From an uncultured Pseudomonadota bacterium (GTDB taxonomy: Bacteria > Pseudomonadota > Gammaproteobacteria > Steroidobacterales > Steroidobacteraceae), in contig CAIRLC010000032.1 in NCBI GenBank assembly GCA_903879335.1, positions 1 to 56,124 on the forward strand: a stretch of 56,124 nucleotides of DNA, written 5' to 3'. The notes under the pieces are model-generated. The model saw only the letters and a program-made list of their open reading frames with translations. It ran no database searches and was not told where the DNA came from. How positions within the stretch are numbered: position 1 is the first letter of the stretch; every line of letters begins with the position of its first letter. A program made the position numbers and the translations under genes. This document shows positions 14,096 through 46,549 of the stretch, in pieces.

Positions 14096-14337
14096 GAAAC
14101 CCCCTCCGAGCGCGCTAACCGACAAACAAGCACCTCACCCGTCGAAGGATTGCGCTCAATATGGAGCCAGGCTCTGCAACCGGCGATGTGCTGCCAGTGC
14201 TCAACGCTGAGGGTCAGGCTATCGACCCGCAAATAGACCTGTTCAAAGGGCGTATGGCCTGCATTCGGCAAGGTCTTGTGAAATTCAAATTCGCGCAGTT
14301 CACGCGGTCCGCAGAACGGGCAGATCAGACGACTCAT
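14092..14337 (-). CDS. soxD: Sarcosine oxidase delta subunit
   Basis: 81 residues. SoxD is the small zinc-binding subunit of heterotetrameric sarcosine oxidase. It begins with the CPFCG zinc motif and has SVEHWQHIAGCRAWLHIERN in the second half, both diagnostic. It overlaps soxB by 4 bases (stop and start share ATGA at 14334-14337) and soxA by 4 bases at the other end. It is slightly short for the family, whose C-terminus is variable. Confidence 0.93.
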   Translation of the reverse strand: MSRLICPFCGPRELREFEFHKTLPNAGHTPFEQVYLRVDSLTLSVEHWQHIAGCRAWLHIERNPSTGEVLVCRLARSEGVS

Positions 14338-15608: not shown

Positions 15609-15711
15609 GCGATGCTCTGTCCTTCAAAATAAAACCGGCACGCCTTTTGAGCGTGCCAACGAGGCGGGAGGATACACCGCGCGCCCCACTGACGGAATTG
15701 TGAATCAGGGT

Positions 15712-16314
15712 TCATGCACGATCTGCTTGCGTGAGCGCGCGGATGAGCGCATCCACCAGTCGCCGACGGCGTGCGGGCGGATAACGACGGGCTTCCAACA
15801 CCACGCCAAGCCATAAACCATCGATACCGCCGACGAGGAGATCAACGAGGTCCGAGTCGGACTCGGACGACGCCACTTCACCCAATTGGCGTGCTTCCCG
15901 CAGGTTTTTTGCGATCAGGCGTCGCCAGCGGGCGTAATACTCCCGGTGCACGGTGGCCAACGTCCGGTTGTGCCGAGCCGCGCTCCACAGCGCGAGCCAC
16001 ACACCGGCATAGGTGACTTCGCCGGCCGCCGGCACCATGAATGAGAGCGATGCCGACAGTCGCGCTAGGCCCGCAGGGGCCGCGCGCAGTCGGGCATTGA
16101 GCGCGGCAAAGGATTCGCGCGCCAACCAATCAAAAGCGCTCGCGATTAATTCGTCTTTATCGCGAAAATAGTGGGTGAGCACACCCATGCTGAACCGGCC
16201 GGCTTCAGCGATTCGCCGAAACGTAGCCGCCTCTGCGCCTTCAGATTCGACGACCTGAACCACCAGGGCCGCCAACTCATCGCGGCGACGAACGTGATCA
16301 ACTCGTTTGGGCAT
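15712..16314 (-). CDS. TetR-family regulator (BetI-like)
   Basis: 200 residues from the ATG at 16314, which has a GGAG ribosome site 7-8 bases upstream. The frame is open further but without support. The N-terminal HTH is clear (AATFRRIAEAGRFSMGVLTHYFRDKDELI) and resembles BetI and related regulators of choline/betaine metabolism. The C-terminal ligand domain is all-helical. It is divergent from the methyltransferase operon, with a perfect small palindrome in the 120-bp gap. It likely represses both itself and the operon until an N-methylated substrate is present; that inference rests on context. Confidence 0.85.
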   Translation of the reverse strand: MPKRVDHVRRRDELAALVVQVVESEGAEAATFRRIAEAGRFSMGVLTHYFRDKDELIASAFDWLARESFAALNARLRAAPAGLARLSASLSFMVPAAGEVTYAGVWLALWSAARHNRTLATVHREYYARWRRLIAKNLREARQLGEVASSESDSDLVDLLVGGIDGLWLGVVLEARRYPPARRRRLVDALIRALTQADRA

Positions 16315-16394
16315 GGGACTCCTACGCGTAAGCCCAACAATACCGAAAACCTTCGGCCGCGTCTGCCCGCGCAACAAGCACTTTCGATTTTCGC

Positions 16395-16408
16395 ATAACA
16401 GATGTTAT
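16395..16408. promoter_or_regulatory. Palindrome in the tetR / methyltransferase divergent promoter region
   Basis: ATAACA (16395-16400), GA, TGTTAT (16403-16408): a perfect inverted repeat with a two-base centre, in the only gap between the divergent TetR and methyltransferase genes. It ends 26 bp before the methyltransferase start at 16435. Size and position suit binding of a TetR dimer. Confidence 0.55.
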
Positions 16409-16434
16409 AAATGCCCGAAAGGGGGAGTCAACCG

Positions 16435-17976
16435 ATGGCCGACAACGACACAAACCGAGGCAAAGGCCGTGAGGCACGACGGGCGGCACGGTCTCGCCAA
16501 GGGCTCGCGAAACTGCCCTACCTTCGCCGGCAAATTCCGGCAGTTGAGCTCATCTCGAGCGAAGCCTGCGAGATCATCGAGGCGAACGCGGAAACCTTAA
16601 TGGAGGAAATCGGCATCGAGTTCCGGCGCGATCCGGAAAGCCTACGGCTGTGGAAACAAGCCGGCGCTGACGTTCAAGGTGAGCGCGTCCGGATTCCGCG
16701 CGGTCTTGCTCGGCAACTGCTACAGGCCGCGCCGAGTGAATTCACGGTCACCGCCCGTAATCCGGCCCGAAGTGTCCGCTTCGGCGGGAATTCGACGGTG
16801 TTCTCCCCCGTCGGCGGCCCGCCCTTCGTCTCGGACCTGGATCGCGGCCGGCGCTACGGCACGCTGGCGGACCTCACCAATTTCATCAAGTTGGCCCACG
16901 CCGCACCGCCAATCCATTTCGCCGGCGGGTGCGCCGTGGAGCCGATGGATATTCCCGAGGGCAAGCGCCATCTTGACACTCAATACGCCTATTTCAGGCA
17001 TACCGACATGGCGTGCGAGGCCACCCCTGAAACCCCGGGCCACGCCCTCGATGCCGTGCACATGGCCGAGCACGTCTTCGGCCGCGACGTGGTGGCGAGT
17101 GGACCCGTCGTGCTGGGCAATATCAATTCCAATTCACCGCTCACCTTCGACGGGCGCATGCTCGGCGCGTTACGCGTCTTCGCGGAGCACAATCAGGGCA
17201 CTCTGATCGTGCCGGCGGTACTGGCCGGGGCCATGGGGCCGGTGACGCCCGCCGGCTGCCTCGCCGAACTGTTAGCCGAGTGTCTGGCCGGTATGGCCCT
17301 GACCCAGCTGGTCCGGCCCGGCGCGCCCGTCATCATGGGTTCGTTCGTCGGCGCCATTTCCATGCGGACGGGAGCACCGACTTTCGGCACGGCCGAAGCC
17401 ACCCAGATGATTTTTGCGACCACGCAATTGGCGCGTCGCCTCGGCGTGCCGGTCCGCAGCGGCGGCTCCCTCTGCAGCTCCAAAGTCGCGGACGCTCAGG
17501 CGGCCTATGAAAGCGCGCACACGCTACTGCCATCGCTGTTGGCCGGGGTGAACCTCGTGACCCACGCGGCCGGCTGGCTCGAGGGTGGACTCGTTTCGTC
17601 CTACGAAAAATTCGTGATGGATGTTGACCAGTTGGCGATGATGCAAGCCCTGGGCGGCGGCCTCGATATCTCGGAGCGCGGTCAGGCGATGGACGCCCTA
17701 CGGGAAGTCGGTCCCGGTGGACACTTCTTGGGTTGCGCGCACACCCAAGCCAATTTCGAAAAGGCATTCCATCAGTCGAGCATCGCCGATTACGCCTCGT
17801 ACGAGCAGTGGGACCTCGAGGGACGCCTCACGGCCGAGCAGCGCGCCAATACGGTGTGGAAGCGGATGCTGGCGGATTATGAGGATCCCGGGATCGACCC
17901 GGCGGTCGATGAGGCACTGCAAGATTTCATGGCGCGGCGCCGTGCGGTGCTGTCCGATCGCATTGAGGAGGAATGA
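16435..17976 (+). CDS. Trimethylamine methyltransferase family protein (non-pyrrolysine MttB homologue)
   Basis: 513 residues from the ATG at 16435, preceded by GGGGGAG with good spacing; an earlier ATG at 16411 lacks a site. The sequence is of the MttB superfamily (VFSPVGGPPFVSDLDRGRRYG, FAGGCAVEPMDIPEGKRHLD, GTAEATQMIFATTQLARRLG). There is no in-frame amber codon, so it is one of the large non-pyrrolysine branch. Studied members (MtgB) demethylate glycine betaine or other quaternary amines and pass the methyl to a corrinoid protein. No corrinoid-protein gene is in this window, so the methyl acceptor is uncertain. It overlaps the following flavoprotein gene by 4 bases. Confidence 0.85.
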   Translation: MADNDTNRGKGREARRAARSRQGLAKLPYLRRQIPAVELISSEACEIIEANAETLMEEIGIEFRRDPESLRLWKQAGADVQGERVRIPRGLARQLLQAAPSEFTVTARNPARSVRFGGNSTVFSPVGGPPFVSDLDRGRRYGTLADLTNFIKLAHAAPPIHFAGGCAVEPMDIPEGKRHLDTQYAYFRHTDMACEATPETPGHALDAVHMAEHVFGRDVVASGPVVLGNINSNSPLTFDGRMLGALRVFAEHNQGTLIVPAVLAGAMGPVTPAGCLAELLAECLAGMALTQLVRPGAPVIMGSFVGAISMRTGAPTFGTAEATQMIFATTQLARRLGVPVRSGGSLCSSKVADAQAAYESAHTLLPSLLAGVNLVTHAAGWLEGGLVSSYEKFVMDVDQLAMMQALGGGLDISERGQAMDALREVGPGGHFLGCAHTQANFEKAFHQSSIADYASYEQWDLEGRLTAEQRANTVWKRMLADYEDPGIDPAVDEALQDFMARRRAVLSDRIEEE

Positions 17977-20396
17977 TGAAATCACACTATCGCGTCGTCG
18001 TCATTGGTGGCGGCATCGTTGGCACCAGCGTGTTGTATCACCTCACCAAAAAAGGTTGGACAGATGTCGCTCTGATCGAACGTGCGGAACTGACCGCCGG
18101 ATCAACCTGGCATGCAGCGGCTGGATTTCACTCCATCAACGACGATCCCAATATCGCCGCGCTGCAGGCGTACACCATCTCGCTGTACAAAGACATTGAA
18201 GCGGAGAGTGGGCAAAGCGTCGGTATGCATATGCCGGGCGGTTATTCGATAGCCACCAGTCCCGAGCGCTGGGAGTGGTTACGCGGCGAATGCGCGGTCT
18301 ACGAGACCCTCGGCATTCACGCCCGTCTCGCCACGCCCGAGGAGATCGTGGCGGATTGCCCGATTGTCAGTCCGGAAGGCCTGCTGGGTGGTTTGTTCGA
18401 CCCGCTTGAAGGCGCCGTCGACCCACACGGCACGACGCACGCATTCGCCATTGCCGCGAAGAAGCGCGGCGCCGAAGTGATCCTGCGCAATCGGGTGCTG
18501 TCACTGACACCGTTAGCGAATGGTCACTGGCGGCTCGAGACGGAGCACGGCACGGTCATCGCCGAGCATGTCGTCAACGCGGCCGGTCTTTGGGCACGCC
18601 GCGTGGGTCGCATGGCCGGACTGAACTTACCGCTCGTGCCGATGCAGCATCATTACCTGATCACCGAGTCGCTGCCGGAACTGCTGGCGATGGATCGCGA
18701 GATGCCCTGCGTGACGGACCTTGAAGGGTTCACATACCTTCAGCAGGAAAAGAAGGGCGTCTTGCTCGGCGTCTACGAGCGCGATCCACGCCATTGGCAG
18801 ACCGAGGGTGCGCAGTGGGATTACGGCATGGACCTGATCCCGGAGGACATCGACCGCATCGCCCCGGAACTCACGATTGGCTTCCGCCGCTTCCCAACGT
18901 TGGAACGCGCCGGTATCCGTCGTTGGGTCAATGGCGCGTTCACCTTTACGCCCGATGGCAATCCATTGGTCGGTCCAGTGCCGGAACTTAAGAATTACTG
19001 GACCGCGTGCGGCTGCATGAGTGGATTCTCGCAAGGCGGCGCAATCGGCTTAGTGCTGTCGAACTGGATGGTGGATGGCGACCCGGGCACTGACGTGCTC
19101 GGGATGGATGTGGCGCGCTACGGCAGCTGGGCCTCCAACGAACGGTATTTATTGGATACCACGCGCCAGTTCTATGAACGGCGTTTCGTCATGGCGTACC
19201 CCAACGAAGAACTGCCGGCCGGGCGTCCCTTGCGCACGACACCGGCCTACGACGCCCAGGTTGAAGCCGGGGCACGCTTTGGTGTGGTCTGGGGGATGGA
19301 GAGCCCGCAGTACTACGCGCCGAATGAACCGGATTTCGTTGATCCGCCGACACTGCGCCGTTCGGCCGCACACCGCTTCATCGCCGAAGAAGTGGCAGCG
19401 ACCCGCTCAGCCTGCGGTCTGATCGATACCGGCGTGTACGCCCGCTACGAAGTCAGCGGACCGGGAGCCAAAGGCTACCTGGATCGCTTGCTCGCGAGCC
19501 GTCTGCCGGACGTCGGCCGTGTACGGTTGGCGCCCATGCTCGCCCCGTCGGGGCGACTGCTGGGTGATTTGTCGGTCACCTGTTTAGCACCGGATCAATA
19601 CTGGATTGTCGGGTCCTATTATTTGCAGGAGTGGCACCTGCGCTGGTTCCGCGAGCACCTACCCGCTTCTGGGGTGACTCTGCGCAATCTCTCCGACGAG
19701 TGGATGGGATTCTCGCTGTCGGGTCCGGCGTCCCGCGAATTGCTCGCGCGACTGGTGCCGGACGATCTGTCGGACGCATCGCTGCCATTCATGGCTGCAC
19801 AACGCCGCCAAGTAGGGCTCGCCGATGCGGTCATTGCACGCCTGTCGCTCACGGGCGAACTCGGTTACGAGATCAACGTGCCAGCGGCCTCGCTGCGCGG
19901 TGTATGGCATGACCTCATGATCCTCGGCCGTGAGCATGGCCTGCGTCCGGTCGGCATGCGCGCGCAGGATTCGCTGCGCCTTGAGAAAGGCTATGGAATC
20001 TGGTCGTGCGAGTTTTCTGCCTCGAATACGCCTAGCCAATGCGGTCTCGCGCGTTACGTCGACTACGACAAGCCAGGCTTTATCGGTCGCGACGGCGCCT
20101 TAGCGGATCGGGACACGCCGCCGGACGATCGTCTGGTCTTGCTGGGACTCGCCAGCGGCGTCGATGCCGATGTCGGCGGTTACGAGCCGGTCCGCGTCAA
20201 TGGCGAACGGGTGGGCTACACCACATCGGGCGCCTACGGCCATCACGTCGGTCGCAGTCTCGCGCTCGCCTACGTGTCCCGTGCCGCACTGGACGCCGGT
20301 GCTGCGCTCAGTGTCGATCTGATCGGGACGCCGGTGCCGGCAGAAGTCCTGCATCACGCACCGTATGATCCTAGCGGGTCGCGTCTGCGCGGCTGA
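17973..20396 (+). CDS. Dimethylglycine/sarcosine dehydrogenase-like flavoprotein with GcvT domain
   Basis: 807 residues, the usual length for this family. N-terminal FAD fold VVVIGGGIVGTSVLYHL (residues about 8-24), then ELTAGSTWHAAAGFHS; the His of the WHAA motif is where the family attaches FAD covalently. The C-terminal half is a tetrahydrofolate-binding GcvT module (LIDTGVYARYEVSGPGAKGYL, RAQDSLRLEKGYGIWSCEF). It should remove an N-methyl group from dimethylglycine or a similar amine and pass it to THF, one step before soxBDAG in betaine breakdown. The start is an ATGATG overlapping the methyltransferase stop, after GAGGAGG. Confidence 0.9.
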   Translation: MMKSHYRVVVIGGGIVGTSVLYHLTKKGWTDVALIERAELTAGSTWHAAAGFHSINDDPNIAALQAYTISLYKDIEAESGQSVGMHMPGGYSIATSPERWEWLRGECAVYETLGIHARLATPEEIVADCPIVSPEGLLGGLFDPLEGAVDPHGTTHAFAIAAKKRGAEVILRNRVLSLTPLANGHWRLETEHGTVIAEHVVNAAGLWARRVGRMAGLNLPLVPMQHHYLITESLPELLAMDREMPCVTDLEGFTYLQQEKKGVLLGVYERDPRHWQTEGAQWDYGMDLIPEDIDRIAPELTIGFRRFPTLERAGIRRWVNGAFTFTPDGNPLVGPVPELKNYWTACGCMSGFSQGGAIGLVLSNWMVDGDPGTDVLGMDVARYGSWASNERYLLDTTRQFYERRFVMAYPNEELPAGRPLRTTPAYDAQVEAGARFGVVWGMESPQYYAPNEPDFVDPPTLRRSAAHRFIAEEVAATRSACGLIDTGVYARYEVSGPGAKGYLDRLLASRLPDVGRVRLAPMLAPSGRLLGDLSVTCLAPDQYWIVGSYYLQEWHLRWFREHLPASGVTLRNLSDEWMGFSLSGPASRELLARLVPDDLSDASLPFMAAQRRQVGLADAVIARLSLTGELGYEINVPAASLRGVWHDLMILGREHGLRPVGMRAQDSLRLEKGYGIWSCEFSASNTPSQCGLARYVDYDKPGFIGRDGALADRDTPPDDRLVLLGLASGVDADVGGYEPVRVNGERVGYTTSGAYGHHVGRSLALAYVSRAALDAGAALSVDLIGTPVPAEVLHHAPYDPSGSRLRG

Positions 20397-20441
20397 GATC
20401 TCATAATCAGGCGGCGCCGGGGGCGTGAGGGGAAGATTGCC

Positions 20442-21722
20442 ATGACGCGTCGACGAGAACCGGTCCGCATTCGGTGGTGGATCTTTCTGTATCTGTGCGG
20501 GTTCGCGCTGCTCAGTTACTTGCAGAGGACAGGCGTCTCAGTCGCCGCCGAAGCCATGATGCCGGCGCTCAATCTGACGCACTTTCAGATCGGCATTCTG
20601 CTAGGCACCTTTCCGCTCACGTATCTGATCTTTCAGATTCCCGGCGCAACGTTTGGGCAGCGCTTCGGTGCGCGAGCCACCTACGCGGCGGTCGGCGTGA
20701 TCGGGATGCTCGCGCTGGTCGGTATTCCGCTCGCCCCCTACGTTTTCAGCGGTGCCGCACTTTTCGGCGCAATGGTCCTCGCTCAAGGCGTGCTCGGCGC
20801 CTCGCAAGGCCCCGTTTTCCCGCTCGTCGCCGCGGTCGGCCAAGTCTGGTTTCCGGAAAATCGTTGGTCCTTCATTAATGGCGCGATTTCCACCGGCATG
20901 AATCTCGGCGGCATGATCGCCGCGCCACTCGTGGTGTTTTTGCAAGGTCGCTACGGATGGCAAGGGGCCTTGTTGTGGCTGGCGATCCCGAGTCTCGTGC
21001 TGACCGTGGCCTGGATGCGCTACGCCCGCAACTCACCGGCCGAACACCCGAAGGTGACGTCGGCTGAAATTGCCGAACTCCCGCCGCCGCCTGCACCGCC
21101 GCCCCCATTGACGCTGCCGCGACTGTGGGCCATTGCCTCGGATCGCGACGTGATTCGGCTCGCGCTGTCCTATCTGTGCATGAATTACGCGTTCTATCTG
21201 CTCTCGTCATGGTCGTTTATCTATTTGCGTGAAGTTCGCCACCTGGACGGCCTTGAGAGTGGCGTAGCGGGCGCCATGCCGTGGATCGGCGCGGCGCTCG
21301 GTGGGGGTCTGGGCGGTGAATTCGGCGATCGCTTCGCCACGTGGTTCGGCCCACGCTGGGGACTGCGCCTGATTCCGCTGGTGACCATGCCGATCGCTGG
21401 ATTGTTACTGCTCCTGACCATCCACGTCTCGACGCCATACCTCGCGGTGCTCGCACTGACGGTCGCCTTTTTCGCGGTCGAACTGAACGAAGGTCCGTAT
21501 TGGGCGGCGACGATGCGCGTCGCGCGCGCCGATACCGGTGCTGCGACCGGCGTGCTCAATACATTCGGAAATGGTGGCGGTATCGTTGCAGGCCCGGTGG
21601 TGGGCTGGCTATCGGGTCACGGTGGCTGGGATGCTGCGTTCATTACAGGAACGGTGTTCGCCGTCGTCGGCGGGCTGCTGTGGCTGTTCATCAATCCGGG
21701 GCGCGACAGTGCACGCAGTTGA
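20442..21722 (+). CDS. MFS transporter (anion:cation symporter type)
   Basis: 426 residues with about 12 membrane segments; the N-terminal half (QIGILLGTFPLTYLIFQIPG, GASQGPVFPLVAAVGQVWFP) resembles the ACS family that moves organic anions with H+ or Na+. A proline-rich cytoplasmic loop (ELPPPPAPPPP) divides the two halves. GGGGAAG precedes the ATG. It lies 45 bp after the dehydrogenase gene, so it is probably the third gene of the operon and may import the methylated amine or export a product. It is not a BCCT or proU-type betaine carrier. The 256 bp after it contain nothing I recognise. Confidence 0.82.
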   Translation: MTRRREPVRIRWWIFLYLCGFALLSYLQRTGVSVAAEAMMPALNLTHFQIGILLGTFPLTYLIFQIPGATFGQRFGARATYAAVGVIGMLALVGIPLAPYVFSGAALFGAMVLAQGVLGASQGPVFPLVAAVGQVWFPENRWSFINGAISTGMNLGGMIAAPLVVFLQGRYGWQGALLWLAIPSLVLTVAWMRYARNSPAEHPKVTSAEIAELPPPPAPPPPLTLPRLWAIASDRDVIRLALSYLCMNYAFYLLSSWSFIYLREVRHLDGLESGVAGAMPWIGAALGGGLGGEFGDRFATWFGPRWGLRLIPLVTMPIAGLLLLLTIHVSTPYLAVLALTVAFFAVELNEGPYWAATMRVARADTGAATGVLNTFGNGGGIVAGPVVGWLSGHGGWDAAFITGTVFAVVGGLLWLFINPGRDSARS

Positions 21723-21978
21723 CTGTGCCGACACTCTAAAGTCGCCATGCCGAGCGCAGTTCGCTAGCCCGTGACTCTCTGATGTCGCATGACATTGATG
21801 CACAGGTGTAGCCACGCACCTCCATTATTCCAAGCGGTGCCCGAGAGCACCGGCGAACATGAGTTCCACCGTGGACACCGAACTGGTGCGCTGCTCGCGA
21901 TTGCGGCTGTTAATTGGAGGCATCTACTCCACCGCTGAGTGGCGGCTCGTCCTTGCAGGCACGGTTTATGAAGCTCAT

Positions 21979-22881
21979 TCAGGGCATGGGCGCGCCGCGT
22001 GCGGCGACTAACACCGCGTACCACTGCGCCCGCGTTAATTGAATGTGACGCGCGCGCGCGATGGCCGCAAGATGGGCTGGCGACTGAGTGCCCATCAGCG
22101 GCACGGGGCGACTCGGATGCGCCATCACCCACGCCGCGATGACCGCCGCGCGGGACACTCCACATTCCGACGCGAGCGCATCCAAGACGCCAATGACGGC
22201 GCGCTCACGGTCGTTAGAGCCTGTGCCCATGAGGCGACCACCCCCGAGCGGCGACCAGGCAAGCACCGCCATGGTCTGCTCCATGGCAAGGTCCAAGGTC
22301 CCATCCTCGAGCGGGGCTAAATACAAGGGCGAGTATTCCGGTTGAATGGCGGCTAGAGGCAGCGTGAGGTGAGCGAGTAATGCGCGCGTCTGAGCGACCG
22401 TATAGTTGGACACACCGATCGCGCGAACCTTACCGTCACGATGCAAGCGTTCAAGCGCCGCAGCAACTTCCGCGGGGTGGGCGAGATGATCGGGTCGATG
22501 AATCTGGTAGAGATCGATCGTCTCAACGCCCAAGCGAGTCAATGAGGCCTCACACGCATGCACCAAGTAATCTGCCGACGAGTCGTACGGGACCGGCGGC
22601 GTGATACCCCCTTTGGTGGCGAGCACAATGTGTTCTCGCAAAGCAGGTCGCGCGCGCAGGACGCGCCCCAGTAATTGCTCCGCACCACCAAAGCCGATCG
22701 GCGTGCCGAGACCATAGATATCCGCGGTATCGAATAAGGTGAGCCCGGCAGCCATCGCCGCATCAATGGTCGCCAAAACCGCATTGAAGTCGAGCCCAGC
22801 CATTCGCCACATCCCAAAACCGACGGGGGAGACATGAAAGCCACTGCGGCCAAGCGGCACTGAGCCTGTCGATGCTGTCAT
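21979..22881 (-). CDS. Aldo/keto reductase
   Basis: 300 residues from the ATG at 22881, which has AAGGAGAG five bases upstream; a start eight codons earlier lacks this. The (beta/alpha)8 family signature is complete: catalytic Asp and Tyr in LFDTADIYG, Lys in VLATKGG and His in YQIHRPD. The sequence resembles the branch containing D-threo-aldose 1-dehydrogenase, L-fucose dehydrogenase and pyridoxal 4-dehydrogenase. It is a cytoplasmic NAD(P)(H)-dependent reductase or dehydrogenase of a sugar or aldehyde. It is divergent from the peptidase gene and has its own upstream inverted repeat. Confidence 0.85.
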   Translation of the reverse strand: MTASTGSVPLGRSGFHVSPVGFGMWRMAGLDFNAVLATIDAAMAAGLTLFDTADIYGLGTPIGFGGAEQLLGRVLRARPALREHIVLATKGGITPPVPYDSSADYLVHACEASLTRLGVETIDLYQIHRPDHLAHPAEVAAALERLHRDGKVRAIGVSNYTVAQTRALLAHLTLPLAAIQPEYSPLYLAPLEDGTLDLAMEQTMAVLAWSPLGGGRLMGTGSNDRERAVIGVLDALASECGVSRAAVIAAWVMAHPSRPVPLMGTQSPAHLAAIARARHIQLTRAQWYAVLVAARGAPMP

Positions 22882-22904
22882 CCGTCTCTCCTTAATAGCG
22901 CTCA

Positions 22905-22929
22905 CGCTTATGCCTCAAAATCATAAGCG
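22905..22929. promoter_or_regulatory. Inverted repeat upstream of the aldo/keto reductase gene
   Basis: Perfect 8-bp arms CGCTTATG (22905-22912) and CATAAGCG (22922-22929) with a 9-base spacer, 24 bp upstream of the reductase start. It is a candidate operator. The regulator is not obvious nearby. In the rest of the 22882-23265 gap I see no gene, terminator or other repeat. Confidence 0.45.
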
Positions 22930-38959: not shown

Positions 38960-39877
38960 ATGATGGACACACTCGACTCAACGGCTTTGGAATCAGCAGC
39001 CGCCCTACTCGCGGCAAATCCCGATTACCGCGTTATTCGCCGGCTCGCCATTCGCGATAATTTTTCAGCGCCATCGCAGGAGACTACGGCGATCGCGATC
39101 GTGGTCGATACGGAAACCACAGGCCGTTTTGCCGACGATGCGATGATCGAGATCGCCTTGTTACGGGTCGAGTACGACGTGGCGACCGGACGGATTATTC
39201 GGATTCTTGATACATACTCAGGTTTGGAGGATCCGGGATTCCCAATCCCAGCGGAATCCACTGAAATTCACGGCATCACCGATGCCATGGTTGCCGGACA
39301 ACGTATCGATGACGCACGAGTCGCCGCGATCGTCGAGGGTGCATCGATCGTAATCGCGCATAACGCTGCTTTTGACCGCCCGTTCCTCGAGCGACGTCTC
39401 AAAGTGTTCGAAAGCCTGGCCTTCGGCTGTTCCCATGCGCAGATCCCGTGGGGTCGAGAAGGTATACGCGGCACGAAGCTTGAGTACCTCGGCTTTCTGT
39501 TTGGTTTCTTCTACGAGGCGCATCGTTCGGAGATTGATTGCCGCGCGCTGCTGGAAGTGCTGGCGCAGCGCTTACCGCAGTCCGGCGAATACGCTCTCAA
39601 ACTACTGCTGGATGCCGCACACGCGCCGCTACTTCGCTTATGGGCGACTGGTTCACCGTTTGATAGCAAAGACCGTTTACGGGAACGCGGCTATCGGTGG
39701 GAAGCGGCGGTCAAAACCTGGGCACGAGTCGTGGCTAAGGATGACGCCAAGGAAGAGAGCGAATGGCTGAAACTTGAAGTCTACGGCGGTCGACCAGCAC
39801 AGATTGATGTTGAGGTTCTGGACGCAAAAGTTCGTTTTTCGCACCGCCCCGGTCCACGTAAAGCTCGCGTGATCTGA
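38960..39877 (+). CDS. DEDDh 3'-5' exonuclease (DnaQ-like)
   Basis: 305 residues; a second ATG at 38963 has better spacing from GGAGGA and may be the true start. The Exo I motif is IVVDTETTGR near residue 50, Exo II is in IVIAHNAAFDRPFLERRL, and the final acidic/His residues lie in AHRSEIDCRALLEVL. It should degrade DNA (or RNA) from 3' ends. It is not the chromosomal pol III epsilon subunit: the C-terminal ~100 residues, which include RLRERGYRWEAAVKTWARVV, are unlike it. Divergent from virB; plasmid backbones often carry such accessory exonucleases. Confidence 0.85.
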   Translation: MMDTLDSTALESAAALLAANPDYRVIRRLAIRDNFSAPSQETTAIAIVVDTETTGRFADDAMIEIALLRVEYDVATGRIIRILDTYSGLEDPGFPIPAESTEIHGITDAMVAGQRIDDARVAAIVEGASIVIAHNAAFDRPFLERRLKVFESLAFGCSHAQIPWGREGIRGTKLEYLGFLFGFFYEAHRSEIDCRALLEVLAQRLPQSGEYALKLLLDAAHAPLLRLWATGSPFDSKDRLRERGYRWEAAVKTWARVVAKDDAKEESEWLKLEVYGGRPAQIDVEVLDAKVRFSHRPGPRKARVI

Positions 39878-39990
39878 AGTATTTCGGTCGATCTTCGACT
39901 TTCTATACAAAGACACTCGATATTCGACATACGGTCACCAGAACTTCAACGGCAACATCTGGATTCGTGTTGCCCGTTTGGAGTGTTGCG

Positions 39991-40611
39991 ATGCGTCGGC
40001 TCGACCTGGATGTGCCCTTCCAAGATCGGCATCTGGCTAAACGGCTTGGTGCGCGCTGGGACGTTTATCGTAAGCAGTGGTTCGTGCCAGAGTCCACAGA
40101 CCCGGCTGCACTGCTCGGTTGGTGCTGCGCAAGCGCCTCGGTGAACGTCCGCTCGCATGGCTATTACCTGCTTGAGACCCAGCATCCGTGTGACAACTGC
40201 GGCCGCTCATCGCGGGTGCACGGTATTGTGCTCCCGACCGGACATGAGGTTCGGATGCTCGGCGATTATCCGCTGGGTGATGAATGGGAGCGATCGGATG
40301 AGCCGTCGTTGATTGCATTTGTCACCAACTTGGCGCCGAGCGTGAGTGCGCGTATCCGCCAGGACACCTGGTGTTATCGGCCACGGCAGAGTTTCAAGCA
40401 CCCGGAACCGTATCACCTCAACCATTGCGAGTTTTGCGGCGGCCAATTCGATGATTACCAACTCTTCGCAACACCTGGATCGGGCTTTGACGTGCTCAGC
40501 GAAATACAGGCCGCCGAGATTCAGGTCACGGCGGTCGGTTCTGGCTTTGCCGGCGCTGCCGAGCATTTTTCCTACGGCGTCGCTTTTTTGGACGCGATGC
40601 GTCGGCGCTAA
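39991..40611 (+). CDS. DUF5710 domain protein with zinc-ribbon-like cysteines
   Basis: 206 residues from the ATG at 39991, with TTTGGAG 7-13 bases upstream. LDLDVPFQDRHLAKRLGARWD and KQWFVPES are the DUF5710 signature, a domain often next to DNA primase or topoisomerase-like parts of mobile DNA. Two CxxC pairs follow (CDNCG near 70 and CEFCG near 150), a likely zinc site. The last ~50 residues are unlike known domains. Function unknown; the family is enriched on plasmids and in prophages, consistent with the location. Confidence 0.75.
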   Translation: MRRLDLDVPFQDRHLAKRLGARWDVYRKQWFVPESTDPAALLGWCCASASVNVRSHGYYLLETQHPCDNCGRSSRVHGIVLPTGHEVRMLGDYPLGDEWERSDEPSLIAFVTNLAPSVSARIRQDTWCYRPRQSFKHPEPYHLNHCEFCGGQFDDYQLFATPGSGFDVLSEIQAAEIQVTAVGSGFAGAAEHFSYGVAFLDAMRRR

Positions 40612-40617
40612 GGTCGA

Positions 40618-41157
40618 CTAGAGGGTGCGAGACATCACCACCATCGCTGCGTGTTCAGGGCGCACGCCGGGCTCGACCAACTGGGCGTGATCGAATACGT
40701 CGAAGCCGAGTGCGCGATAGCGGTCGACGACGGCGTGTTGATTAGTCATCGCCCGCAACCATATCGATGTCCGCCCCGCCGTGCGCGCGTCGTCGATAGC
40801 GTCTTCGATTAAGCGTTGACCCACGCGTCGTCCGGCGGCTGAGGGCAGGACATAGACGCGTTCAAGGTAGGCCGCGTTCGTTAAAGTGCCGATGTTTTCC
40901 AGCCGGTGCCATTTTAGATAGCCGGCATCGACGCCCGCGCGGCGCGCGATTTTATAGACCACATTTGGCACGCTAATTTCAGTTTCGAGTTGTTGGCGAC
41001 TGAATGCACGGGCGAGATAGTTTTCCATGGCATTCGGCTGCCAGAGGTAGGCGTAATAAGCCGCGTAGCTCTCGCTAGCGATGGTTTGTAGTCGGTCGAG
41101 ATCGTTAGCGGTCACGGTGGTGCATTCGATCGGGATTTCGGCCTCTGTGTCCGGCAT
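40618..41157 (-). CDS. GNAT-family N-acetyltransferase
   Basis: 179 residues. The acetyl-CoA-binding motif is in RVYVLPSAAGRRVGQRLIEDA, with a C-terminal RYRALGFDVFDHAQLVEPGV. It should acetylate an amine or protein N-terminus; the substrate is not predictable. It converges with the DUF5710 gene and lies next to the origin. It may be cargo of the plasmid or a small-molecule resistance function. Confidence 0.85.
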   Translation of the reverse strand: MPDTEAEIPIECTTVTANDLDRLQTIASESYAAYYAYLWQPNAMENYLARAFSRQQLETEISVPNVVYKIARRAGVDAGYLKWHRLENIGTLTNAAYLERVYVLPSAAGRRVGQRLIEDAIDDARTAGRTSIWLRAMTNQHAVVDRYRALGFDVFDHAQLVEPGVRPEHAAMVVMSRTL

Positions 41158-41185
41158 GTCGCGTTGAATCGTCCGTAGGAGTTAT

Positions 41186-41211
41186 TACAGGAATCTACAG
41201 GAGATACAGGA
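41186..41211 (+). repeat. Three tandem TACAGGA repeats
   Basis: TACAGGA occurs at 41186-41192, 41196-41202 and 41205-41211, at 9-10 bp steps, about one helical turn apart. The sites lie just upstream of the acetyltransferase start on the minus strand and beside the iteron array. The copy TCTACAGGA (41194-41202 region) recurs at 45070-45078 in the partition gap. They may be a binding site for a regulator or for a replication protein. Confidence 0.5.
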
Positions 41212-41257
41212 GGGGCGTCCAAGCTAATGAAATCGTTGAATAAAATGGCGGTTTTGC

Positions 41258-41345
41258 GGAGAGATGTGACGGTTTGGTGCGAGACGTGTGACGCTTTTTC
41301 GGGGGTGTTGTGACGCCGACTTGGGAGTGATGTGACGTCCGACAC
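41258..41345 (+). repeat. Iteron array of a plasmid origin (four 22-bp units)
   Basis: The core TGTGACG occurs at 41265, 41287, 41309 and 41331, spaced exactly 22 bp each, two DNA turns. Units run 41258-41279, 41280-41301, 41302-41323 and 41324-41345; G/A-rich bases precede each core (GGAGAGA, CGAGACG, GGGGTGT, GGAGTGA). Two weaker relatives, TGTAACG at 41417-41423 and TGCAACG at 41510-41516, lie further right. Such phased direct repeats are the binding sites of a Rep initiator. The RepA gene is next to them. Confidence 0.88.
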
Positions 41346-41573
41346 CGGACGTTATCCCGGAGACCCTCGGCGTTGGGATCAATAAAATCAATGAGTTATA
41401 ACTTAGGCGTGAGAGATGTAACGGGGTCTGATCAACATCACGAAAGTCACTGAATTTACGCAGGTTTTTCGTTGTTCCGGTGCGCTGGTTCTGGCTTTTG
41501 CGTGAGAGTTGCAACGGTCCTGTCTCCGCTCCCCTCCCCGCTTTGCTTTGGCGGGTCGCTCGATGGGCGCTGA

Positions 41574-42680
41574 TCAACGGGTTTTGGGGCGTCGCGGTAA
41601 GTGCGGCCGTGATGGCAATAGCATCAGGCCACCCTCCACGACGGTGACGTTGGCTTCTGGGTAGACCGCACGCACACGCGTCAGCGAGTCGAGAAAGAAA
41701 CGTCGGAACTGGCGCAGTTCGGCATAGGCGTGTCCGAACTGATCTGATAATTGCTGCCAGGTCACGGTGCTCGGCTTACCGAGATGAAAGAGTCGATGGA
41801 CGAGCCACGCGTAGACGTCGAGGTCCATGGGGCTTTTGCGCAACGCTTTGATGGCAGCGGTTGATAAGGGCGCGGAGCGTTCAAGAATAGATTGGAACAG
41901 TACGCTGGATAATTGCATGGTACTCCCCTGCCCGACCGTGGCATCTTCATCCCACCACAGTCTTGCTTCTTCGGCGAAGAGTGCTTGGCGGATATGCAGG
42001 CCAGTGCGCCCGCTGGCGTCGCGGATGTTCTCGTCAATCGATAGGGTGCAATGAATCAATCGCAGCAATTGATTGGCGTAGACGCGCAGGTTGCCCCGCT
42101 CGCCGCGGGTGACCGGCACGTCCAATAGCCGCAGAAACTCGTGCACTGATTTGCCGAGATAAATCTCAGGGGATCCTGTGCGAACGGCTTCGCTGGCACA
42201 GTAAATGGTCAGCAATCGTGCCGGGACGCCGTACGGCAAGCCGGTTTCCGGTCGTGTAGTACCCAAGGTTAATTCAAGCCACCCATTGCGGCGACTGAAT
42301 GAGGTCAGTTCATGCGGGTCGGCGTGTGGGAACGAACACTGAATCAGCGGCACGTAGTGGAAGGAGATTCCATCGAGTGCCGGTGTCTGGTCGGGTATCG
42401 AAGTGGGCGCTGTTGAACTGGCCGGAAGGGCGACCGGGTTTGGCAGTGCTTGGGTCAAGCGCGCCGTGACAGACTGTGGCGTGACGGCGCGTGGTCCTGG
42501 CAGTTCCGCGCGCTGGAAGGCTGTCTCCGGGAAGTCTGGAAAGTGTGCGCGCAGTGCGGTGGGCGTATAGCCATCCGCGACGAGCCGAGCCAAAATACGC
42601 GCGCGTGAGTAGCCTGCCGCTGTATATCGCTGCAGCGCCCCCCTCAGTTCAACGTCAATGTCGTTGGTTTCGGTACTCAC
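41574..42680 (-). CDS. repA: RepA_C-type plasmid replication initiator
   Basis: 368 residues from the GTG at 42680; the frame is open to 42890, but that would overlap parA and is not favoured. An ATG at 42761 is an alternative. The C-terminal half matches the plasmid RepA family: LPYGVPARLLTIYCASEAVR, then LGKSVHEFLRLLDVPVTRGE and LRRSP-like KALRKSPMDLDVYAWLVHRL. It should bind the iterons at 41258-41345 and open the origin. The N-terminal ~100 residues are less conserved and Pro/Ala-rich in places. It is divergent from parA. Confidence 0.85.
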   Translation of the reverse strand: MSTETNDIDVELRGALQRYTAAGYSRARILARLVADGYTPTALRAHFPDFPETAFQRAELPGPRAVTPQSVTARLTQALPNPVALPASSTAPTSIPDQTPALDGISFHYVPLIQCSFPHADPHELTSFSRRNGWLELTLGTTRPETGLPYGVPARLLTIYCASEAVRTGSPEIYLGKSVHEFLRLLDVPVTRGERGNLRVYANQLLRLIHCTLSIDENIRDASGRTGLHIRQALFAEEARLWWDEDATVGQGSTMQLSSVLFQSILERSAPLSTAAIKALRKSPMDLDVYAWLVHRLFHLGKPSTVTWQQLSDQFGHAYAELRQFRRFFLDSLTRVRAVYPEANVTVVEGGLMLLPSRPHLPRRPKTR

Positions 42681-42718
42681 GTGCGCAGAATAATGCCTTT
42701 CAGCCCGGTTGTATGCAC

Positions 42719-42747
42719 GGATTTCTGGTAGATTCTCCGGAAAATCC
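42719..42747. promoter_or_regulatory. Imperfect palindrome in the repA-parA gap
   Basis: GGATTTCTGG (42719-42728) and CCGGAAAATCC (42737-42747) face each other around TAGATTCT. The element sits between the probable repA start and the parA GTG at 42777. It is suited to autoregulation by ParA (whose N-terminal domain is a DNA-binding one) or RepA. Confidence 0.4.
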
Positions 42748-42776
42748 GTGGGTGAGCCCATCTCCGGGAGGACAGT

Positions 42777-43952
42777 GTGCCAGTGACCCCAGCCATTGAC
42801 AAGTTGCAGTCGATTCTCGATTACAGCGAGAACTTCTTGTCCAAGATGCACGAGCTCGGCCAAGCGCCGCATTCGCGCAAATCTCTCCAACGACTCTTCT
42901 CGCCGTCTGAAGCCGCTGACATGGTCGGTCGGGACCGTACGACGTTGGCGCGCGCCGAGGAAGAGTTAAAGGTCGATCCGCCGGTCCGCAACCCGGACAA
43001 TAACCGGCGCATCGGTTATTCGCTCGAGCAGATTCAAGCGTTCCGCGAGCACTTCGGCACATTGCCCTGGCGTGATAGCGCCACCGATCGGCCGATGGTC
43101 ATTGCCTGCCAGAACTTTAAGGGCGGCGTGGGCAAGTCGACCACGTGTATCAATTTTGCACATTACCTCGCGCTGAAGGGGTACCGCGTGCTCGTGATCG
43201 ATACCGACAGCCAGGCGACGACCACGTCGATGTTCGGTTACGTGCCGGATGAAGATATTCGTCAGGAGGACACGATCCTCGGCTATTTAGACGGTTCGCA
43301 CAGCACGCTCCAACCGGTTATTCGGAAGACCTACTTCCCGAACGTAGATCTCGTGCCGGCGTGTTTGGCGCTGTACGAGGCTGAGATCGCGCTCGTCATT
43401 CACATCGCGGAGCAGTCATCGCTCGAGGCGCGTCGTGAAGTGTTTGCGGAGCTCGGGTACGGCATCCAATCGGTGGCCGACAATTACGATGTGGTTCTGC
43501 TCGACTCACCGCCGGCATTGGGTGTCATTTCGCTGAATGTCTTGCTGGCCGCGGATGCGCTGTTGGTGCCAACTGCCGCCAAGATGTTCGACTTTTCCTC
43601 GACCGTGCAGTTCTTCCGCATGATCCGGAATTACGTGGCCCAGTTGGCGCCTGATAAGAGCTATCGCTGGATCTCCGTACTCACGACGCTCTTTGACCAA
43701 CGCTATGACAGCCAGCGCCAGTTCGTCGACGTGATGCGGGCGTGCTTCGGTGAGAGCGCGTTCCAGCGCGTCTTCTTTCACGCCGCAGAAGTGATCAACG
43801 CGTCTGCACAGTTCGTCGGTCCGTATGAACAGGTCAAGCCGAATCGCAAGGTCCTGGAGATGATGGACAGCGTGTTCGGGGAGATCGAGACGGCGATCTT
43901 GCGTGAGTGGCCGTCCAAGCGCGAAGCGCTGCATGGCAAGGGCATCATCTGA
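42777..43952 (+). CDS. parA: ParA partition ATPase, type Ia
   Basis: 391 residues from a GTG with GGGAGG upstream. The N-terminal ~100 residues form a helix-turn-helix (FSPSEAADMVGRDRTTLARAEEEL) as in P1 and F type Ia ParA, which both segregate plasmids and repress their own operon. The deviant Walker A is ACQNFKGGVGKSTTCINFAHYL near residues 108-127, and the Walker B is VVLLDSPPAL. It works with the following parB and a parS site. The separation from parB is 10 bp. Confidence 0.95.
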   Translation: MPVTPAIDKLQSILDYSENFLSKMHELGQAPHSRKSLQRLFSPSEAADMVGRDRTTLARAEEELKVDPPVRNPDNNRRIGYSLEQIQAFREHFGTLPWRDSATDRPMVIACQNFKGGVGKSTTCINFAHYLALKGYRVLVIDTDSQATTTSMFGYVPDEDIRQEDTILGYLDGSHSTLQPVIRKTYFPNVDLVPACLALYEAEIALVIHIAEQSSLEARREVFAELGYGIQSVADNYDVVLLDSPPALGVISLNVLLAADALLVPTAAKMFDFSSTVQFFRMIRNYVAQLAPDKSYRWISVLTTLFDQRYDSQRQFVDVMRACFGESAFQRVFFHAAEVINASAQFVGPYEQVKPNRKVLEMMDSVFGEIETAILREWPSKREALHGKGII

Positions 43953-43962
43953 GGGGATGACG

Positions 43963-44946
43963 ATGAATAAAAGATTATTTGGTGGTGCGAAGCTGGGTGA
44001 TATTGCGAAGACCGTGCGCGATCGTGCGGATGCCGCGCCAGCCCAGGTCGATCGGCCGGCATCACAAGCGGTGCTTCCGACCGCTGAGTTGGCCTTACAA
44101 GGTCGTACCAGTCCGGGATTGATTCGCGAGACGATTTTGTCGGTTGACCCGAAGCGCTGCCGCGGCTGGCGGTTACACAACCGCTCGGAGGGTTGGTACA
44201 CGCGTGAGCGCTGTGAAGATTTGATTCGGTCGATTCCCACCGACGGTCAGCAGGAACCGGCGCTGGCGCGCCGTGTGAAGGATGACCCTCAGTTCGATTT
44301 CGAATTGATCTACGGCATGCGTCGTCGTTTTGCCTGTGAAGCCACCAATACGAAGCTCAAGATCCGCATCGTTGACGTGCCGGATATGCAAGCCGCTGTA
44401 CTGATGCACCTCGAGAATGCGGATCGCCAAGACATCACGCCGATGGAACGTGCGCTGTCCTTCCACGCGCAACTCGAGGCCCGCGTGTTCCCGACGCAGG
44501 AGTCGTTGGCTTCGGCGTTGAACGTGTCTAAAGGGCAGGTGACGAAAATGGTGAAGGCGGCGCAGTTGTTGGCCTTAGCGCCGGTCGCGGCTTTGTTCCT
44601 GGACCGCTCGCTGGTCCCGGTGGAGCAGGCCTATAAATTGTCGTCATTGCTTGATCGCCCCGGGGCGAAGGACGTGGTTCTGCAGGCGGCGAAAAATCTA
44701 GCTCGGCGCGAAGAGGAGGGTGGTCGCGATCCGCGTGCGGTGCTCAAGGCGCTGTTGGCCAGCCTCGATCAGTCCCGCAAGCTTGAACCGGTTCGTCGCG
44801 AGTACAACGTCGGCCGCGCCGGTCGCGCGATTGTCGTCCGCAATGCACGCGGCAAAGTCACCGTTGCATTTCCGAAGGGATTGGGGACGTCGGATCGTGA
44901 TGCGGTGTTCGCGGCCATGGAGCAGATCTTGAAGGATCTCTCCTGA
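43963..44946 (+). CDS. parB: ParB partition DNA-binding protein
   Basis: 327 residues from the ATG at 43963, six bases beyond GAGGGG; the ATG at 43957 abuts that site. ParB/Spo0J-type: LIYGMRRRFACEA (the GERRYRA-like motif of the CTPase domain), then IVDVPDMQAAVLMHLENADRQ and the HTH SLASALNVSKGQVTKMVKAAQLL. It spreads from parS to form a partition complex with ParA. The N-terminal MNKRLFGGAKLGDIAK should be the ParA-interacting region. Confidence 0.93.
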   Translation: MNKRLFGGAKLGDIAKTVRDRADAAPAQVDRPASQAVLPTAELALQGRTSPGLIRETILSVDPKRCRGWRLHNRSEGWYTRERCEDLIRSIPTDGQQEPALARRVKDDPQFDFELIYGMRRRFACEATNTKLKIRIVDVPDMQAAVLMHLENADRQDITPMERALSFHAQLEARVFPTQESLASALNVSKGQVTKMVKAAQLLALAPVAALFLDRSLVPVEQAYKLSSLLDRPGAKDVVLQAAKNLARREEEGGRDPRAVLKALLASLDQSRKLEPVRREYNVGRAGRAIVVRNARGKVTVAFPKGLGTSDRDAVFAAMEQILKDLS

Positions 44947-44956
44947 GTGCGGGGGC

Positions 44957-44979
44957 TTAGGTTTCGAGACGAAACCTAA
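44957..44979. other. Candidate parS centromere (inverted repeat downstream of parB)
   Basis: Perfect 10-bp arms TTAGGTTTCG (44957-44966) and CGAAACCTAA (44970-44979) around AGA, 10 bp after the parB stop. A second inverted repeat with arms TGAGTTTC and GAAACTCA (45008-45043) contains the same TTTC/GAAA words, and CGAAA/TTTCG words recur at 45023, 45035 and 45134. The absence of a T-run argues against a terminator. A cluster of TTTCG/CGAAA motifs beside parB suits a parS region. No other feature was found in the 44947-45276 gap apart from the kfrA promoter. Confidence 0.55.
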
Positions 44980-45242
44980 TCAACCTATTGATTTATAAAG
45001 ATAAAAATGAGTTTCTACTACACGAAAAGCACGTCGAAACTCAGCAACCCGATCGCAGTTCAGGGCCGATCTACAGGACTTTGCTTCAGGCGATAAATTG
45101 AGTTATGACCGGCCTCTGCGTCGCGTGGAACATTTCGTGAAACAAGTATGTCTCGTAAGTTATTGAAATAATTAGAACAAAGCCCTGAAGAGTGGCTTCG
45201 CCAGACCCTTGAATGAACCTCCTTCGAGGGGTTACGGAAAAA

Positions 45243-45271
45243 TTTCCGAAACCGGTAAACCCGGTTATAAT
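45243..45271 (+). promoter_or_regulatory. Promoter of the kfrA-like gene with overlapping palindromes
   Basis: A perfect -10 box TATAAT (45266-45271) is preceded at 17 bp by TTTCCG (45243-45248). The ATG of the next gene is at 45277, so transcription should start at or within a base or two of the start codon. An inverted repeat AACCGG (45250-45255)/CCGGTT (45261-45266) overlaps the -10 region, and CGGAAA/TTTCCG (45235-45248) overlaps the -35. Both are candidate operators for autorepression by the KfrA-like protein. Confidence 0.6.
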
Positions 45272-45276
45272 GGGCC

Positions 45277-45735
45277 ATGCGGCCTCGCCTATTGACCGAT
45301 GAGATGATTCAACTCGCCATTCGCGACCTGTCCGATGGCGGGCGCGTGACCGGCGTCGCGGTGCGTGCGTTGTTGAAAACGCGTTACGGTGCTCGCGGGA
45401 GCGTCCAGCGGATTTACCGCTTGTTGGAGCACGCAGGCCAGCCTGCACCGGTCGTGGCTCGCGAGAAAACTCCGCCGGCCGATCCGCGCCTGAGCCAAGC
45501 GGCAGAGGATCGAATTCGTCTTGCCGAAGAACGTGAGCGCGTCCATCAGGAACGCTGGGCCCGAGAAACGGACGCGCTGCGCGGGCGTCTGGTGGAGGCC
45601 GAACGCGCCGGTCGAGAGGTGGCAGAATTGCGTTTGCGCGTCGCGGAATTGCGCCGCGCCCTCGCCATTGCGCACGTGCGAATCCGTGAACTTGAGCCCG
45701 CGCTGCCGAGCCGCGCGGCTTCGCCGACCGGCTAG
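45277..45735 (+). CDS. KfrA-like DNA-binding protein with coiled coil
   Basis: 152 residues. N-terminal KfrA_N helix-turn-helix (LTDEMIQLAIRDLSDGGRVT, GARGSVQRIYRLLEHAG), then from about residue 75 a long charged alpha-helical coiled coil (RIRLAEERERVHQERWARET). KfrA proteins are autorepressing, plasmid-borne, and support stable partition. This one is much shorter than the ~300-residue classical form. It follows parAB and has a TATAAT promoter directly before its ATG. No ribosome site is seen, consistent with a leaderless mRNA. Confidence 0.82.
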   Translation: MRPRLLTDEMIQLAIRDLSDGGRVTGVAVRALLKTRYGARGSVQRIYRLLEHAGQPAPVVAREKTPPADPRLSQAAEDRIRLAEERERVHQERWARETDALRGRLVEAERAGREVAELRLRVAELRRALAIAHVRIRELEPALPSRAASPTG

Positions 45736-45844
45736 ACCGGGGAGGGGAAGGGTCCGCTCCGATCCCGTCTAATGCGCGGCGTTGGTGGCGCGGGTGTCTG
45801 CGCATTTTGGTAGCCTCCAGGCTGCGCTGAGGGAAGGTCTACCC

Positions 45845-46549
45845 GTGTCCACGTTGCGTGTTGTGATACCCATACCATCACCGATCACGGTGGCGATTGC
45901 TGCCACGGTGGAGCGATATCCCGTACACCGCATCTATTGCGTGGGCCGCAATTACGCGGAGCATGTCCAGGAGATGGGCGGCGACGTCGAGCGCACCCCA
46001 CCGGTATTTTTCACCAAGCCCGCGGACGCAGTCTTGGCAGACGGCGCGGATTTCCCTTATCCGCCGCGCAGCCAAGACGTGCAACCCGAGGTTGAGCTCG
46101 TTATCGCGATTGGGCAGGGCGGGGCTAATATTGCGGTTGATGCCGCATTGAGTCACATCTACGGCTATGCAATTGGCAACGACTGGACCCGGCGTGATCT
46201 GCAGACGACCGCAAAACGTGGCGGAGCGCCGTGGGATCTGGCGAAGGGTTTTGATCACTCCGCCGCTGTGGGAGCAATCTATCCGGTGGGAAGCATCGGT
46301 CACCCGTGCCGCGGCCTGATTCGGCTCGAGGTAAACGGTGTCGAGCGTCAGCGTGGTGATCTTTCCGCCATGATCTGGTCAGTACCGGCCATCATCGCTG
46401 AGCTGTCGACCTACGTGACGCTGGTCCCGGGCGATCTCATTTTTACCGGCACGCCCGCCGGCGTCACCTCGGTGGTCCCCGGCGATCAAATTGAATGTCA
46501 CATCGAAGGCTTGGGTACGCTCAGCAGTCGCGTGGTGGAGAGACAATGA
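45845..46549 (+). CDS. Fumarylacetoacetate hydrolase family protein
   Basis: 234 residues from the GTG at 45845, with GGGAAGG upstream; the frame is open from 45782 but the longer version has no support. The fold's metal site is present in RIYCVGRNYAEHVQEMGG and in EVELVIAIGQGG, together with YGYAIGNDWTRRDLQ and DLIFTGTPAGV. Members cleave C-C bonds in acylpyruvate-type products or decarboxylate oxaloacetate (FAHD1-like). It overlaps the following dehydrogenase gene by 4 bases, so the two probably share a pathway. Confidence 0.9.
   Translation: MSTLRVVIPIPSPITVAIAATVERYPVHRIYCVGRNYAEHVQEMGGDVERTPPVFFTKPADAVLADGADFPYPPRSQDVQPEVELVIAIGQGGANIAVDAALSHIYGYAIGNDWTRRDLQTTAKRGGAPWDLAKGFDHSAAVGAIYPVGSIGHPCRGLIRLEVNGVERQRGDLSAMIWSVPAIIAELSTYVTLVPGDLIFTGTPAGVTSVVPGDQIECHIEGLGTLSSRVVERQ

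Follow-up and report, generated by a model that had tools for sequence, protein, structure and literature searches.

Why does a row of evenly spaced repeats lie beside a plasmid-type initiator gene in the genome of an uncultured gammaproteobacterium, and to what kind of replicon do they belong? The repeats are found at 41158–41573 of the 56,124-nucleotide stretch of DNA that was analysed (the window), 3' of repA, between the end of that gene and a gene for a GNAT acetyltransferase (40618–41157). A preliminary description of the locus had read them as an iteron origin, by comparison with established iteron plasmids. We conclude that positions 41160–41573 are very probably the origin (oriV) of a large, low-copy secondary replicon, forming with repA, parA, parB and a parS-like site one replication–partition module of about 3.8 kb (Table 1). 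The origin reading is supported because six repeat slots recur in related loci, GC skew turns nearby and strong matches to the repeat motif cluster there; the conserved spacing, the parAB genes with their parS-like site and the precedent of SGI1 all speak for it. Two parts of the earlier picture give way: the replicon seems chromid-like instead of a plain plasmid, and the probable unwinding side moves to the flank of the array.

Six repeats and their initiator

The word TGTGACG stands on the forward strand at 41265, 41287, 41309 and 41331, in steps of exactly 22 bp, so that an exact-word count agrees to the base with the positions first given for it; the rest of the 56-kb window has two further copies on the forward strand and two on the reverse. 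When any 7-mer at an exact 22-bp step is considered, the longest run is four in the window and at most two in 60 dinucleotide shuffles, and for any spacing of 17–23 bp it is two in every one of the 60. Chance does not yield such an array: none of these shuffles matches the window's run. Two additional copies, at 41402–41423 (ending in ATGTAACG) and 41495–41516 (ending in TTGCAACG), had been noted as weaker repeats. They are present, and weaker if judged by TGTGACG, yet it is these two that match the consensus of related loci most closely (25.1 and 25.5, against 9.8–19.3 for the four array copies). Read in the repA sense, all six are copies of the single motif CGTTGCATCTCTCCCGC (18.7 bits).

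The adjoining gene does encode a RepA_C-type initiator, as had been proposed: its product matches PF04796 at E 7.4e-18 with 65.9 bits, against a cut-off of 26, over residues 219–378 of the 438-aa frame, and no family is assigned to it by NCBIfam or PHROGs. Its predicted fold is of middling quality (pLDDT 63, pTM 0.53) and has no match at E 0.001 or better among structures; the best true-looking match, to a co-crystal series with sister entries named RepE54 (E 0.029, probability 0.99, TM by target 0.56), weakly suggests a RepE54-like fold. A search of the RepA profile against solved structures returned penicillin-acylase-related proteins at E 0.33 and 0.54, which we take as chance matches.

Relatives of RepA occur in 25 loci of draft genomes, with titles such as 'Gammaproteobacteria bacterium', 'uncultured proteobacterium' and, once, 'uncultured Steroidobacter'. 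The comparison set consists of 21 loci, the window and 20 of these 25; two fragments (L025, L026), two loci with fewer than 300 bases downstream (L016, L019) and L021 were left out. Of the DNA downstream of repA, the first 460 bases were aligned and the first 520 scanned. A six-slot plan is common to all 21 loci, 117 of the 126 slots being filled at a motif score of 6 or more; the nine unfilled ones are inner array slots in seven loci, and four extra matches fall outside the slots. These scores are not independent, because the loci scored had also served to train the motif model, although the scoring demanded neither 22 nor 93 bp. The first iteron begins 2–188 bases past the repA stop codon. 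Slots 1 and 2 are 92–93 bp apart in 15 loci and 103–104 in 6, slots 2 and 3 are 72–73 bp apart in 6, 83–86 in 11 and 95–96 in 4, and the four-copy array spans 66 bp in 17 loci, 65 in 3 and 67 in 1. The spacing classes differ by roughly a turn of the helix, which is suggestive of a need for the six sites to face the same way; since these classes are few and shared by descent, the helical steps come down to a handful of events. The Steroidobacter metagenome-assembled genome L021 has motif matches 181 and 44 bp apart. Within the genus, 11 of 15 genomes have RepA relatives and, family-wide, a RepA match at E 1e-60 or better is found in 16 of 150 genomes, belonging to 4 of 25 genera. The 21 loci offer a natural series for studying how iteron spacing, IHF and the melting region cooperate in the RepA_C class.

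Table 1. Features of the replication–partition module in the window, and the gene for protein X of the second module type
Feature	Position	Strand	Basis or remark
Three TCCTGTA repeats, about 10 bp apart	41186..41211	-	conserved in relatives
AT-rich flank beyond the array, likely DNA unwinding element	41205..41254		AT 0.56 in window
Iteron slot 6, end of phased array	41255..41271	-	motif match
Iteron slot 5, weakest	41277..41293	-	motif match, score 9.8
Iteron slot 4	41299..41315	-	motif match
Iteron slot 3, first of four 22-bp-phased copies	41321..41337	-	motif match
IHF-like site AATCAATGAGTTA, between slots 2 and 3	41386..41398	+	exact match to WATCAANNNNTTR
Iteron slot 2, 93 bp from slot 1	41407..41423	-	CGTTACATCTCTCACGC
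Iteron slot 1, nearest repA	41500..41516	-	CGTTGCAACTCTCACGC
repA, RepA_C initiator, proposed GTG start at 42680 (368 aa)	41574..42680	-	PF04796
Inverted repeat CACGGATTT-N17-AAATCCGTG, between divergent repA and parA	42716..42750		conserved arms
parA, ParA/SopA-like ATPase	42777..43952	+	profile match; divergent from repA
parB, ParB/RepB family	43972..44946	+	TIGR00180 above its cut-off; divergent from repA
parS-like palindrome GTTTCGAGACGAAAC, directly after parB, single in window	44961..44975		palindrome scan
Protein X gene	L087:9381-10367 (G001:C14)	-	also in G002, G004, G005, G006, G010, G012

How the origin may work

The elements around the iterons recur with them. The IHF consensus is WATCAANNNNTTR, and in the interval between slots 2 and 3 it is matched exactly in 7 and within one mismatch in 12 of the 21 loci (shuffle means 0.06 and 1.07); a site at offset 7–8 is found in 16 of the 21 only, including all seven with an exact match. 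Beyond slot 6 there are 3 exact matches and 14 within one mismatch (shuffle means 0.13 and 1.69), this second site lying at offset 21–22 in 16 of 21 loci and being degenerate in the window. Between slots 1 and 2 we do not claim a site, as the 4 of 21 loci with at most one mismatch there do not exceed the shuffle maximum of 4 (mean 0.89).

The AT-rich stretch that had been pointed out next to the array, between it and the weaker repeats, does exist (approximately 41380–41402) and contains the exact IHF-like site. The likely unwinding side is nevertheless the opposite flank, beyond the array (41186–41254): across the 21 loci the 50 bases there have a mean AT content of 0.611, compared with 0.384 in the array and 0.434 overall, and in 18 of them this flank is the most AT-rich of four segments. 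Two or three copies of YCCTGTA, within one mismatch, occur in all 21 loci, and similar repeats are present in G006:C82, a contig on which repA, parA and parB are the only window genes with close matches. These repeats perhaps belong to the unwinding element. We recognised no known counterpart of them; we discarded a role as GNAT promoter, since loci in which no GNAT gene was detected retain them. DnaA boxes (consensus TTWTNCACA) are usual in iteron-type theta origins, though not in every member. The window's origin has none within one mismatch, and such boxes are present in 12 of 24 sequences, without a common position.

On the other side of repA, the inverted repeat is likely the repA/parA operator: among 17 aligned sequences, two of them without the region or ending early, its left arm is exact in 12 and its right arm in 14. 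Just past parB, the palindrome GTTTCGnnnCGAAAC is found in 9 of the 10 loci that are long enough (11 were scanned, L004 being too short and L012 being without it), and it occurs once per sequence in each of five scanned whole, as a likely parS.

We propose the following mode of action. The six direct repeats most likely serve as RepA binding sites on one helix face, while IHF would bend the DNA between the two outer repeats and the four-copy array and so join them. The resulting RepA–DNA complex would then melt the AT-rich DNA past the array, which contains the TCCTGTA repeats, and replication would depart both ways, as the skew suggests. Copy number might be controlled through titration or handcuffing, and the copies would be segregated by ParABS.

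GC skew had been named beforehand as an observation that could refute an origin at this place, and it favours one. The best change point lies 3.6 kb from the origin on G010:C20 (312 kb), 3.5 kb on G006:C82 (169 kb), 5.1 kb on G008:C21 (140 kb), 0.2 kb on G009:C28 (120 of 122 kb) and 0.6 kb on G014:C22 (40 of 44 kb), though in the window itself (56 kb) the turn is 9.4 kb off; on all six contigs the skew to the left of the change point is lower than that to the right. In G010 the cumulative skew minimum is 19 kb from the origin, and the skew within 20 kb is negative on both sides. To separate the effect of replication from that of gene direction, third-position skew was measured per gene strand, the longest frames serving as crude gene calls. 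It increases from left to right across the origin on both gene strands, in 12 of 12 comparisons; the sign changes on both strands in G008, G009 and G014, whereas G010 and G006 show a slight shift only. For G001:C14, where another module occupies this place (see below), a 100-kb piece gives no skew change (p 0.71). Motif matches with a score of 19 or more are equally concentrated: 16 of 16 on the five other contigs and three of four in the window lie at the origin, and 190 kb of chromosome pieces contain none. One lone strong match in the window (9312–9328, reverse strand, score 22.9) is inside an open reading frame; it could titrate RepA or be due to chance, and the five other contigs have no equivalent.

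Iterons often act both as origin and as copy-control or incompatibility sites. The array might hence be a locus that titrates RepA while replication starts elsewhere on the replicon, as titration sites are described for RctB in PMC6090056 and the lone match at 9312 is placed 32 kb away. We consider this quite unlikely: the skew turns near the array on every one of the six contigs, the strongest matches on the other five are confined to the array region, and the AT-rich flank and IHF-like sites recur. It is extremely unlikely that the repeats are operators of repA or of the acetyltransferase gene and no origin at all. The iterons lie 3' of repA, for which the inverted repeat at 42716–42750 is the likelier operator, shared with parA, and the form of the module is unchanged where no GNAT relative was found alongside (L010, G009:C28, G006:C82), even if the TCCTGTA repeats do stand just upstream of the GNAT gene start.

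A module that no longer fires, as a relic or an integrated plasmid inside the main chromosome, is a reading to which the material lends itself in so far as the compared genomes are drafts or fragments and the ends of the window and of the three contigs tested do not overlap. The absence of tRNAs from the repA contigs tested and from G001:C14, and a dnaA match on another contig, speak against it, as do the conserved spacing and the skew, which argue for use; we regard it as highly improbable. An active origin therefore remains the preferred reading.

Known replicons with RepA_C initiators

A DNA similarity search of 40900–43000 against 72,556 plasmid records found nothing, and the comparison with plasmids was therefore made through RepA, which matches 910 records, all below 60% identity. 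The nearest tested relative is the rep/oriV of SGI1, and the kind of origin is one already known. SGI1 (rep S003) and IncN2/N3-like replicons have a RepA_C protein with four direct repeats of 16–17 bp right after rep; in SGI1 replication depends on the AT-rich region beside the repeats, gel shifts are consistent with RepA occupying all four of them, the single repeat DR3 is bound, and the oriV has putative DnaA boxes, according to two reports (PMC7433901, PMC7826253). The window shares with it the RepA_C initiator, the direct repeats 3' of rep and the AT-rich flank. The repeat consensus differs (GGGGGHRATTATGCGY in SGI1, CGTTGCATCTCTCCCGC here), and the 22-bp phasing, the two outer copies, the IHF-like sites, the TCCTGTA repeats and the lack of a detected DnaA box also set the window apart from what these reports describe. 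Whereas SGI1 is a genomic island, the module here has its own parAB and parS-like site and lies on a chromid-like replicon. What is new is thus the RepA_C/iteron module on a chromid-like replicon that is conserved in an uncultured gammaproteobacterial genus, with a different module apparently standing in its place in some species.

Chromosome 2 of Vibrio cholerae uses RctB, a different initiator that is not known to be related to RepA_C. Its ori2 is nonetheless similar in organisation, with iterons, an IHF site, an AT-rich unwinding element and parS on a gammaproteobacterial secondary chromosome, although the iterons there are 12-mers and a DnaA box is present (PMC6090056).

Among 14 plasmid RepA_C loci scanned 1 kb either side of rep, similar repeats are found in two, pGES-GZ and an Enterobacter cloacae plasmid (L112, L113). 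L105 has a 17-bp repeat in three copies, and the other 11 show nothing of note beyond single motif matches. The equal-step part of the scan missed L112 and L113, which the motif part alone caught, so that absence in the other plasmids means little. In these two plasmids, RepA is about 30% identical to that of the window, and five repeats follow repA in a comparable arrangement, one right after the stop codon and, beginning 141 bp further along, the other four. They differ in the repeat (CGTGAAATCGCCCCCCC), its uneven steps of 23–34 bp, and a small ParA with a short partner and no annotated ParB.

For the Polaromonas plasmids, which have a RepA_C initiator as well, PMC6015842 gives likely oriVs, with iteron-like repeats and AT-rich DNA, for all but pW11NP1, and describes the cloning of REP regions for host-range testing. 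No similar repeats turned up in pW9NP1 (L118) and pA31BJ1 (L106) when we scanned 1 kb on each side of rep; for pW9NP1 this conflicts with that report, and the scan is therefore likely too strict.

A chromid-like replicon and a second module type

We describe the replicon as chromid-like because it shares gene order with contigs from other species that reach 312 kb, is roughly like the chromosome in composition, has the one cysNC copy detected in the genome and yielded no tRNA gene; plasmid-type replication and partition genes are present. These features would fit a chromid conserved in an uncultured gammaproteobacterial genus. The genes of the window are syntenic with G010:C20, G008:C21, G009:C28 and G014:C22, sharing type IV secretion, exonuclease, DUF5710 and KfrA-like genes and, on some contigs, cysD/cysNC and genes for trimethylamine and sarcosine oxidation. 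No tRNA genes were detected on the contigs scanned, namely the window, G010:C20, G006:C82 and G008:C21. None of the 45 tRNAs of the window's genome (G000) is on its contig C32, none of the 40 of G010 on C20, and none of the 42 of G001 on the 1.27-Mb C14, which has the same backbone.

The GC content of the window (0.611) is about 2–5 points higher than that of seven pieces of other contigs (0.563–0.597). Its dinucleotide distance (37, multiplied by 1000) is larger than that of six of the seven, which range from 18 to 47 among themselves, compared with 118–125 between genomes. For 100 kb of G001:C14 the figures are 0.701 against 0.705–0.731 in GC and 30–36 against 30–42 in dinucleotide distance, and the GC of G010:C20 is 0.690 against 0.695–0.713. 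The cysNC gene occurs once in 13 of 15 genomes (split across two contigs in G002) and is absent in G013. It lies on the repA contig in G000, G008, G010 and G014, as the only copy found in the window's genome, and on another contig in G007, G009, G011 and G012, four window-type genomes in which contig breaks may account for this.

The slot occupied by the module can hold something else. In G001 and on G006:C57 the flanking genes are kept at 38–85% identity, no repA relative is in the slot, and ParA is only 33% identical (window 38960–46549 compared with G001:C14:646000–657000 and G006:C57:106000–117000). This ParA is followed by another ParB and then by a protein X of 320–330 aa. Of the 14 genomes with the backbone, nine have the window-type module in the slot (G000, G007, G008, G009, G010, G011, G012, G013, G014) and five the X type (G001, G002, G004, G005, G006); G003 has neither. 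Slot types were derived from VirB4, repA, ParA and X counted by contig, plus synteny. Gene order was observed for G000, G001, G006, G007, G008, G009, G010 and G014; in G004 and G012, where VirB4 is on another contig, the slot was judged from the genes on the other side, and for G002, G005, G011 and G013 it rests only on VirB4 and the module sharing one contig.

Two TATGTACGCGTACATA-like palindromes and a hairpin-like block occur in the X-type module, as does a conserved stretch between ParB' and X, a layout like that of a repABC operon. ParA' and ParB' match the partition_RepA and partition_RepB models below their cut-offs. Searches of Pfam, NCBIfam, PHROGs, plasmid records and the PDB gave no significant match to X, and eight X genes with their surroundings showed no equal-step repeats of three copies or more; X is possibly an unrecognised replication initiator. 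The best PHROGs hit, 'replication initiation O-like' at E 0.035, is not claimed. A different, repABC-like module thus appears to stand in for the iteron module in five of the 14 backbone genomes.

Both types also occur away from this slot, the window type without backbone genes on G006:C82 and a 14-kb piece of G005:C204, and further X genes on G010:C33, G012:C109, G006:C16 and G006:C2. We see an even chance that the whole origin–partition cassette has been exchanged in place between iteron/RepA_C (nine genomes) and the repABC-like ParA'-ParB'-X (five), X being of no known family, with the other type on further contigs of four genomes (G005, G006, G010, G012) serving as exchange pool. The VirB4 tree needs two type changes (2–3 in bootstraps), in either direction, and has one long branch, that of G008; a single origin of module type may fit its firm branches. 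Should the same backbone indeed occur with either type, this genus would allow a direct test of a change of control system in a second chromosome.

Chromids are sorted into iteron (beta/gamma) and repABC types in the review PMC6090056. In the literature searched, mostly open-access and in part available as portions of text (including PMC6090056, PMC6015842, PMC7433901, PMC7826253, PMC9025767 and PMC13386836), we came across neither a chromid with RepA_C nor a case of this exchange on a chromid. For islands, module exchange does have a precedent, since some that resemble SGI1 are described as carrying an unrelated replication protein where rep would be.

The window also carries a methylated-amine cluster (5083–22905) with trimethylamine methyltransferase (MTTB), sarcosine oxidase-like and GcvT-like genes and malic enzyme, much of which is also found on G010:C20 and G009:C28. 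A DUF5710 protein (39967–40611 in the window) stands beside the origin in both module types.
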